Assembly (NCBI GenBank): GCA_025360715.1 | Contig: JANYBS010000148.1 | Coordinates: 1 to 35,141 of the forward strand | Reading direction: 5' to 3' | Length of the DNA stretch: 35,141 nucleotides | Source of the DNA: Candidatus Eiseniibacteriota bacterium | GTDB taxonomy: Bacteria > Eisenbacteria > RBG-16-71-46 | Shown here: positions 27,835 to 29,857 of the stretch, piece after piece | Layout of the letters: every line of letters begins with the position of its first letter | Position numbering within the stretch: position 1 is the stretch's first letter | Position numbers and translations under genes: made by a program | Notes under the pieces: generated by a model | Databases searched by the model: none | Seen by the model: only the letters and a program-made list of their open reading frames with translations | What the model was told of the DNA's origin: nothing

Positions 27835-28668
27835 CTACCGCGCCGCGCGCTTGATTCGCGCGGGCATGCGCACCTCGCCGGGGTCCGAGGCCGGCTCCGG
27901 GCGCATGAGGTCTGTGCCGACGAGCATGCGCGCGGCGGTCGTGCGGTTCTCCACGCCGAGTTTGATCAGGATGTTCTCGACGTGCTTCTCGACCGTGCGC
28001 GGCTTCATCTCGAGGATCCTCGCGATCTCGGGATTCGTGCGGCCGCGCGCCAGCCACTGTCCGATCTGGCCCTCGCGTTGAGTCAGCCCCAGCGAAGGCA
28101 GCGGCCTCTCCTCGCCATGCCTGCGCGCGCTGCGCTCTTCGGCGGCCACCAGCGCTTGGATGAAGTGCGGACCGAGCATGCGGAACAGTTTCCGGTCGCG
28201 CTCGGTGTAGTCACGAGCATCCAGGCTGCGGCACAGGTTGAGCGTGCCCGCGCGGTTGCCGCGAAAGAATGCCGTCGACAGCATCCGACCGATGCCCACA
28301 TGGCGGTAGACATCTTTGTATAGTTTCGATGCGCGGATCTGCCGCGGCGTCCAGAAATCCGACAATCGTAGTGGTCCCGCGGCCCCGACTTTCATCGTGC
28401 GCGCGGAGAATGGCATCTCGGGCAGCAGTTCGAAGACGCGCTTCAGCAGTCGTGGCGTGAAGCGCCTGGGGCGTTGCCACAGCACGGTGCTGGGAAGAGG
28501 GTCCTTGCCTCCCAACACGCTGCTCTCGCTCCAGAACCAGAACTCGCTCGGGATCGCAGCCATGAGGATCGCGGGTATGGCGGCTTCGAGTTCTTCCAGA
28601 TCGCGAGGCTCGTGAAGCGCGAGCAACGCGAGTTGCAGCGCATGAAGATCCTGTTCGGTCAGGCTCAA
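27835..28668 (-). CDS. LuxR-type transcriptional regulator (orphan)
   Basis: 277 residues from TTG 28668 (GGGGGG about 9 nt upstream); the next in-frame Met is over 30 residues inside, so TTG is preferred. Residues 195-247 are a LuxR/GerE helix-turn-helix (LTQREGQIGQWLARGRTNPEIA, KPRTVEKHVENILIKLGV), which binds DNA as a dimer. The N-terminal ~190 residues have no receiver-type DD/D/K pattern and look like a PAS/GAF-type sensor (FWFWSESSVLGG, FWTPRQIRASKLYKDVYRHVGI, AFFRGNRAGTLNLCRSLDARDYTERD). The last ~25 residues are a basic tail. No kinase lies nearby. A 6-bp-arm inverted repeat lies 41 bp upstream of its start and could be its operator. It is convergent with the FG-GAP gene and divergent from recO. 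Confidence 0.85.
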   Translation of the reverse strand: MSLTEQDLHALQLALLALHEPRDLEELEAAIPAILMAAIPSEFWFWSESSVLGGKDPLPSTVLWQRPRRFTPRLLKRVFELLPEMPFSARTMKVGAAGPLRLSDFWTPRQIRASKLYKDVYRHVGIGRMLSTAFFRGNRAGTLNLCRSLDARDYTERDRKLFRMLGPHFIQALVAAEERSARRHGEERPLPSLGLTQREGQIGQWLARGRTNPEIARILEMKPRTVEKHVENILIKLGVENRTTAARMLVGTDLMRPEPASDPGEVRMPARIKRAAR

Positions 28669-28709: not shown

Positions 28710-28727
28710 ATACGTAGTTTCACGTAT
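28710..28727. promoter_or_regulatory. Inverted repeat, candidate LuxR-regulator operator
   Basis: ATACGT and ACGTAT arms separated by AGTTTC. The symmetry and 18-bp length suit a dimeric helix-turn-helix protein. It lies 41 bp upstream of the LuxR-type gene's start, in a less GC-rich patch that could also contain its promoter. Confidence 0.4.
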
Positions 28728-28869
28728 TCCCATGGGTGCGTGGACCCACGAGACTATTCGCAGTGCCATGGCATGGGTCGCCGCGTCTGGACCGCGGTAT
28801 GCCTGCTGACATGAAAAGGACCGGAGGTGCCCGGGGGGGCGCAGCCGATCTGCACGGCCGCGGACGATA

Positions 28870-28899
28870 TCACGCGATGCGAAATTTCGCATCGCGTGA
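28870..28899. repeat. Perfect 30-bp palindrome
   Basis: The left half TCACGCGATGCGAAA (28870-28884) is exactly the reverse complement of the right half TTTCGCATCGCGTGA (28885-28899), with no spacer. It directly abuts the long inverted repeat that begins at 28900. Confidence 0.97.
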
Positions 28900-28987
28900 C
28901 GCCGCGGGATCACGGACGATTCACCGACACGGCGCCTCTTCGGGGGAAAGGGCGTCGGGAAGGCCGGACGTCCGTGATCCCGCGGCG
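28900..28987. repeat. 88-nt hairpin with perfect 19-bp outer stem and UUCG-capped inner stem
   Basis: The arm 28900-28918 (CGCCGCGGGATCACGGACG) is the exact reverse complement of 28969-28987. Inside it CCGAC (28924-28928) pairs with GTCGG (28954-28958), and further in CCTC (28935-28938) and GGGG (28943-28946) enclose a TTCG loop. A UUCG tetraloop inside nested stems suggests a folded transcript rather than only a DNA site. No gene overlaps it; it ends 81 nt before the recO start. Confidence 0.9.
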
Positions 28988-29009: not shown

Positions 29010-29015
29010 TAGACT
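29010..29015 (+). promoter_or_regulatory. -10-like hexamer TAGACT upstream of recO
   Basis: TAGACT in the same GTAGACTGCGG type of context as before glyQ (CTAGACTCCGC). It would give a leader of about 45 nt. The -35 position (about 28987) overlaps the end of the 19-bp hairpin arm and has no TTGACA-like sequence. Confidence 0.3.
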
Positions 29016-29068: not shown

Positions 29069-29857
29069 ATGGCCATCGTCACCACCGAAGGCATCGTCCT
29101 CAAGATCCACGCGCTCGGCGACACCAGCCGCATCGTGACGGCTTACACGCGCGATTTCGGCATGACCAAGTTCGTCGCCAAGGGCGCGCGCAAGTCGCCC
29201 TCGCGCTTCGGATTCGCACTCGAGCCGCTGTCGCGCTCGCGCTTCACGTTCTATCTCAAGCCCGATCGCGACCTGCATCTGCTTTCGGCCGCAGAGGTGA
29301 TCGATCCTTTGGGCAGCCGGCTCGGCGATCTCTCGCGGCTCGCGCATGCGCAGGCGGCACTCGAGCTGGTCGACCGCCTGGTGTGGGGCGAGGAGCCGCA
29401 CGGCGAATTGTACGACCTCCTGCGCAACGCGCTTGCCGGCTGTGCCATCGCCCCGGTCGCCTCACTTCCCGCGATCACGCTGGCGTTCCAATTGCAGCTG
29501 GCGGGCGAGCTGGGCTATCGCCCGCGGCTCGACGCGTGCGCGGTCGATGGCCGCCCGGTCTCGCAGCGGCGATTGTTCTCGCCCGGGCGCGGTGGACTGG
29601 TGTGCGACGGCTGCGCGAACCGCGAGGGCGGCGTGATCGTGCTGTCGGCCGAAGCGCTGGCATCGTTCGCGTTGCTGCTGGACCGGCCCGTGGGCGACGC
29701 CGGCGAATACATCGAGATCCAGAGCAGCGGCGAACTGCTGCGCGTGGTCGAGGACTTCCTGCGCACGCACTTTCAACGCTTTCGCGGGCTGCGGTCGTTG
29801 GAAGTGCTCAAATCGCTCGAGACCCCCACCGAACCGCAAGGACCACTGCGCCCATGA
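29069..29857 (+). CDS. recO: DNA repair protein RecO
   Basis: 262 residues from ATG 29069. It has the N-terminal OB fold (VTTEGIVLKIHALGDTSRIVTAYTRDFGMTKFVAKGARKS) and helical C-terminal domain (LAHAQAALELVDRLV, ITLAFQLQLAGELGYRPRLDAC). The zinc-finger region reads CAVDG ... FSPGRGGLVCDGC, so one of the usual four Cys is Asp (Cys-x-x-Asp plus Cys-x-x-Cys). RecO works with RecF and RecR to load RecA at single-strand gaps. The frame runs open upstream from 28736, but that part spans the palindromes and lacks family sequence. The stop overlaps the next gene's start (ATGA). Gene order recO-glyQ-glyS is common in other bacteria. Confidence 0.92.
   Translation: MAIVTTEGIVLKIHALGDTSRIVTAYTRDFGMTKFVAKGARKSPSRFGFALEPLSRSRFTFYLKPDRDLHLLSAAEVIDPLGSRLGDLSRLAHAQAALELVDRLVWGEEPHGELYDLLRNALAGCAIAPVASLPAITLAFQLQLAGELGYRPRLDACAVDGRPVSQRRLFSPGRGGLVCDGCANREGGVIVLSAEALASFALLLDRPVGDAGEYIEIQSSGELLRVVEDFLRTHFQRFRGLRSLEVLKSLETPTEPQGPLRP

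Follow-up and report, generated by a model that had tools for sequence, protein, structure and literature searches.

Long intergenic hairpins sharing one tip: a small, previously undescribed set in a single genus of uncultured bacteria

The luxR–recO gap and its hairpin

The window, i.e., the whole stretch of 35,141 nucleotides that was analyzed, contains a 400-bp gap flanked by genes on opposite strands. On one side, on the − strand, lies a gene for a luxR-type regulator with a GerE domain (27835–28668; Pfam PF00196), a neighbor common to the genomes G000, G001, and G003. On the other side, on the + strand, lies recO (29069–29857), which is followed by glyQ and glyS (Pfam PF02565, PF11967, PF02091, and PF02092 for this run of genes). 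Within the gap, positions 28900–28987 form an 88-nt hairpin, of which the + strand is the likely RNA sense. Its 19-nt arms, at 28900–28918 and 28969–28987, are exact complements and give a stem of 19 bp, just as the earlier note on this DNA had described. The part of the left arm conserved between species is CACGGACG, in the region of 28912–28919, and the conserved tip, CTTCGGGGGAA, occupies 28938–28948. The direct repeats of CGGACGAT that the same note had pointed out are likewise present, at 28861–28868 and 28913–28920.

The interior of the hairpin had been drawn as nested CCGAC/GTCGG and CCUC/GGGG stems, the latter with a UUCG cap, but the favored fold pairs CGGCGCCU with GGGCGUCG and ends in an apical UUC-GGGG-GAA hairpin; in each of the six copies of the element examined, folds that could accommodate a UUCG cap come out 2.7–4.7 kcal/mol worse. 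On the + strand, the 88-mer is predicted to fold at −65.1 kcal/mol; shuffled versions average −37.7 (z −8.2). Folding energy alone was abandoned as a criterion because it does not discriminate in this GC-rich genome, 0.97 Mb of which holds 8575 local hairpins with at least 24 pairs. As stable long folds are this common, weight was placed on the perfect arm and on conservation, not on energy alone. Inverted repeats of at least 60 nt scoring at least 15 number only about 10, the hairpin included, in the approximately 906 kb of the same genome that were sampled by stretches.

Sequence comparison suggests a promoter on either side of the hairpin. A probable extended −10 box of luxR, TGATATCGT (28864–28872, − strand), lies between the hairpin and the gene; the form TGnTAnnnT is common to the luxR genes of the window, G001, and G003, and the first CGGACGAT repeat overlaps the box on the opposite strand. 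Toward recO, a probable −10 box, TAGACT (29010–29015, + strand), has similar counterparts before recO in relatives, and in G003 a −10-like TAACAT precedes glyQ, with the hairpin on its far side. Because these predicted boxes flank the hairpin on both sides, it is probably contained in neither of the neighboring mRNAs. A reading of the hairpin as a luxR leader was rejected for the same reason, as the probable luxR −10 box falls between it and the gene.

A perfect palindrome of 30 bp (28870–28899) abuts the hairpin and overlaps the probable luxR promoter. It was considered as a shared operator and discarded, since it occurs only in its own genome and is absent from every relative or other genome searched. 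The 118-bp unit proposed in the earlier note therefore falls apart into a conserved hairpin and a palindrome found nowhere else. A further palindromic box, TACGTGnnnCyACGTA on the − strand (28711–28726), just before luxR, is common to G000, G001, and G003 and is possibly an operator or a leader hairpin.

Homologues and further copies

In DNA-level searches, the hairpin appears to be a singleton. No second copy was found in its own genome, no convincing match in 59 relatives (two weak matches are attributed to chance), and no copy in phages and plasmids; the arm-pair pattern, too, was absent from the collections of genome contigs and viral contigs. The conserved neighbor is not recO: in relatives, the region upstream of its orthologues is mostly occupied by other genes. 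When these orthologues were used as a guide to homologues of the hairpin, they led to an unrelated hairpin family in G011.

Close homologues of the luxR gene were found only within the genus, and a homologous hairpin is present in the luxR-side gap of two other species, G001 and G003. The order CACGGAC(G)...CTTCGGGGGAA...(C)GTCCGTG is kept at similar spacing in the window, G001, and G003, and both the base CACGGAC/GTCCGTG and the tip are invariant across these three luxR-locus copies. Alignments of the luxR gaps of G000 with G003 and of G001 with G003 scored above all 1000 shuffles, and the score for G000 with G001 was reached by 1 shuffle in 1000. The three-sequence alignment contains 33 consensus pairs, with 91.8% of cells paired and double changes in 12 of the 33. 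Shuffled and slid controls for covariation were far lower, and on four of five measures no shuffle was as good. These compensatory stem changes support the secondary structure from three sequences, the orthologous sets comprising at most three each; the base pairs of the tip are not proven by them, because the tip never varies. Downstream of the hairpin, glyQ is the next gene in G003 and comes one gene later in G001, and in the window recO leads into glyQS. Thus, the non-conserved singleton that the earlier note had named as evidence against the element is what a DNA search seems to return, yet homologues exist in the genus. In GC-rich genomes, homologues that escape BLAST can be recovered from a short tip combined with structure.

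Searching with the 13-mer GCTTCCCCCGAAG revealed two more hairpins, on the contigs G002:C78 and G003:C20. Their 18-nt tip, GATGCCTTCGGGGGAAGC, is identical to that of the G001 and G003 luxR copies; their arms are unrelated to those of the luxR copies and are still paired. These two copies are mutually orthologous and both lie downstream of an ECF sigma factor gene (PF07638), in a gap where the hairpin is the stretch most alike between G002 and G003. The G002 copy precedes the start of a putative sucC (named from its first residues only), and the G003 copy lies between converging genes, with none following on its strand.

Across the family searched, CTTCGGGGGAA occurs at 24 sites. Only 6 of them are part of a long hairpin with z ≤ −3.3, each in the genus. 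Of the 24 sites, the genus holds 14, against 3 of the reversed pattern, and outside it the two numbers are about equal. The copies are intergenic in every case, and CTTCGGGGGAA is invariant in all five firm ones. The sixth candidate (G000:C61:865), in the gap that precedes an aldehyde dehydrogenase-like gene, is a doubtful member because it is not recovered by R1, a covariance model built from the four non-window copies. The best match of R1 in the window is 28924–28966 on the + strand, at 20.6 bits; across 896 kb of the window's own genome this copy also ranks first, the next match reaching 14.7 bits. Matches scoring below the four model sequences in a class-wide search with the model were dismissed as chance, being weak and with folds unlike the element. 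The luxR gap of G001 additionally carries, near the predicted luxR start site (the L171:1407 region, G001:C15:7885), a second and shorter CTTCGGGGGAAGC hairpin, which is not long and has a z of −0.9.

The long hairpins described here are thus homologous, share a conserved tip, display compensatory changes in their stems, and occupy two unrelated gene settings. They form a small, previously undescribed intergenic set in one genus of uncultured bacteria, a restriction that holds as far as the genomes examined show.

A proposed structured RNA and competing explanations

For each of the six copies, the better fold is that of the GGGGG strand, which is the + strand in the window. That strand has 28 G-U pairs and the other 5, a difference with a composition-adjusted p of 0.003 among copies that are related to one another; for the luxR locus alone, the p for the excess is 0.23. 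Together, the wobbles and the folding energies favor an RNA on the + strand of the window, divergent from luxR. No convincing promoter was recognized before the hairpin on this strand, and the sequence after the window copy, GAAGTCTGCTGGGG, holds no U tract.

Overall, what the hairpin resembles most is a small structured RNA, putatively transcribed. Our preferred explanation, in which we place about half of our confidence, is that it is one copy of a small, genus-restricted family of structured RNAs, which would be transcribed divergently from luxR on the + strand of the window, giving a short RNA that either stands alone or is processed. Each copy combines a long stem, the letters of which are free to vary while pairing stays, with a fixed tip, UUC-GGGG-GAA, usually accompanied by a bulged C and a GC/GC step. 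A fixed tip on freely changing paired stems is the pattern expected if the tip is recognized and the stem is a scaffold. The tip would accordingly be what a protein or a second RNA contacts, and the stem would provide stability or act as a scaffold; we can only infer such a partner, as well as any influence on luxR or the genes around it. The difference in gene neighbors between the luxR and ECF loci counts against a family of RNAs. The new small RNA that the earlier note suggested as a possibility is strengthened in part, through the luxR-gap homologues with compensatory changes, the two copies elsewhere, and the lack of any Rfam match at threshold. That these hairpins represent a new class of small bacterial RNA, in which a long stem free in sequence presents a fixed GGGG loop, is a speculative extension that we consider improbable.

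One potential target was noticed in G001, where 13 nt of the predicted luxR leader, GCTTCCCCCGAAG, are exactly complementary to the tip. In that species, the tip could conceivably form a loop-loop contact with the luxR mRNA, which is read divergently. As a rule, such pairing was rejected, because the corresponding match is short elsewhere: 7 nt in G003 (p 0.09) and only 6 nt (p 0.5) in the window.

The main rival to an RNA is an element acting at the level of DNA, i.e., a cruciform-prone or protein-bound hairpin between divergent promoters, in which the site recognized is either the tip, TTCGGGGGAA, or the base, CACGGAC/GTCCGTG. We regard this as a real possibility, to which perhaps a quarter of the weight belongs. 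It would account for the location between probable divergent promoters (luxR on one side, recO or glyQ on the other), for the finding of neither a promoter nor a terminator belonging to the hairpin, and for the perfect 19-bp outer arms of the window copy. DNA pairing, however, would not favor G-U wobbles on one strand, and the ECF copies are not flanked by divergent promoters.

It is unlikely that the hairpin is a palindrome of a mobile or repetitive kind, such as a REP or a MITE, of which only a few copies survive. A tip common to two or more unlinked loci and the presence of other dispersed long hairpins in the same genomes are compatible with such an origin. Nevertheless, the REP- or MITE-like character proposed in the earlier note is hard to reconcile with one copy in the genome and none in the 59 relatives by DNA search, which is far from REP-like abundance; moreover, the loci share the tip and not the arms, and orthologous copies stay in place across species.

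We consider a transcription terminator or insulator very unlikely, strong as the hairpin is. Three of the six copies do follow a gene of their own strand, and the ECF copy of G003 is followed by CTGTTTTCC; the other copies have no U tract, however, the three luxR-locus copies have no upstream gene on that strand, and termination needs no invariant tip. Least credible, and given hardly any weight, is a 5′ leader controlling the + strand glyQS or recO genes: glyQ does follow on the same strand, directly in G003 and one gene later in G001, and recO in the window starts the run to glyQS, but probable promoters separate the hairpin from recO or glyQ (TAGACT at 29010; TAACAT in G003), on that strand the ECF copies are followed by a putative sucC or by no gene, and there is no T-box match.

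Known systems and other hairpins

The statement in the earlier note that the hairpin cannot be assigned to a known family is borne out by Rfam 15, in which no family matches at or above its gathering threshold. Matches to mir-3179 and MIR4387 were set aside as sub-threshold hairpin artefacts (34.7 against a cut-off of 90); these are eukaryotic families, and the likeness is a chance one of long, near-perfect hairpin shape. A closer comparison is offered by the 104 candidate structured RNA motifs of bacteria obtained by comparative genomics (PMC2864571). Like those motifs, the present hairpins are intergenic, combine a conserved tip with a covarying stem, and have a narrow taxonomic range; unlike them, they are represented by very few sequences (three plus two, and one doubtful) and have no match in Rfam 15 at threshold.

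REPs are 20–40 bp in length and usually of high copy number, with more than 100 per genome according to PMC2817692. REPs and REPINs (PMC2817692, PMC3116915, PMC3733652) resemble the hairpin in being intergenic, hairpin-forming palindromes, but REPs share their stem sequence at high copy, whereas here a genome has no more than one or two copies, and the arms are not shared. The hairpin is therefore not a REP of the type described in PMC2817692 and PMC3733652. A check for MITEs returned no near-identical copy in the own genome or the 59 relatives. Intrinsic terminators also have a GC-rich stem-loop; the present hairpins differ in mostly having no U tract, in their conserved loop, and in their wrong position for termination at the luxR locus. 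A literature text search for the letters of the motif gave no paper on bacterial RNA among the matches listed, and no paper was found on such RNA families in this lineage, which is probably Eisenbacteria-like. If transcribed, the hairpins would constitute an undescribed RNA family, arising from sequence that a DNA similarity search calls a non-conserved singleton.

Several other hairpins and repeats were noticed. A separate dispersed family of about 150–170 nt has the ends CTAGTGTCCCG...CGGGACACTAG and the core GCAAGGCGCGACGACGA...GAGGAGGAGCAACGCAGC, with sites at L013:2255–2424, L066 (G000:C40:1879–2026), L065, and L067–L073. Its arms differ between copies with complementarity kept; matches occur in 29 of 59 genomes, with 15 matches in G017, and Rfam contains no match. 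In the window's own genome, a repeated long hairpin of 183 nt, CTAGCCCGGACTATTCATGA...TCATGAATAGTCCAGGCTAG, lies at L109:18762–18944, L144:3006–3146, and L105:3653–3703. A 163-nt hairpin with near-perfect arms of 42 nt (L095:14704–14866) occurs only once in the 906 kb sampled, and a 76-bp perfect inverted repeat (L153:5917–6139) sits at the very end of its contig, perhaps as an assembly fold-back. Finally, ACTCGGTTTGAACCGAGT...ACTCGGTTCAAACCGAGT, an inverted palindrome pair, is present in two 63-nt copies that are 90% identical, at L100:17500–17562 and L134:235–297.
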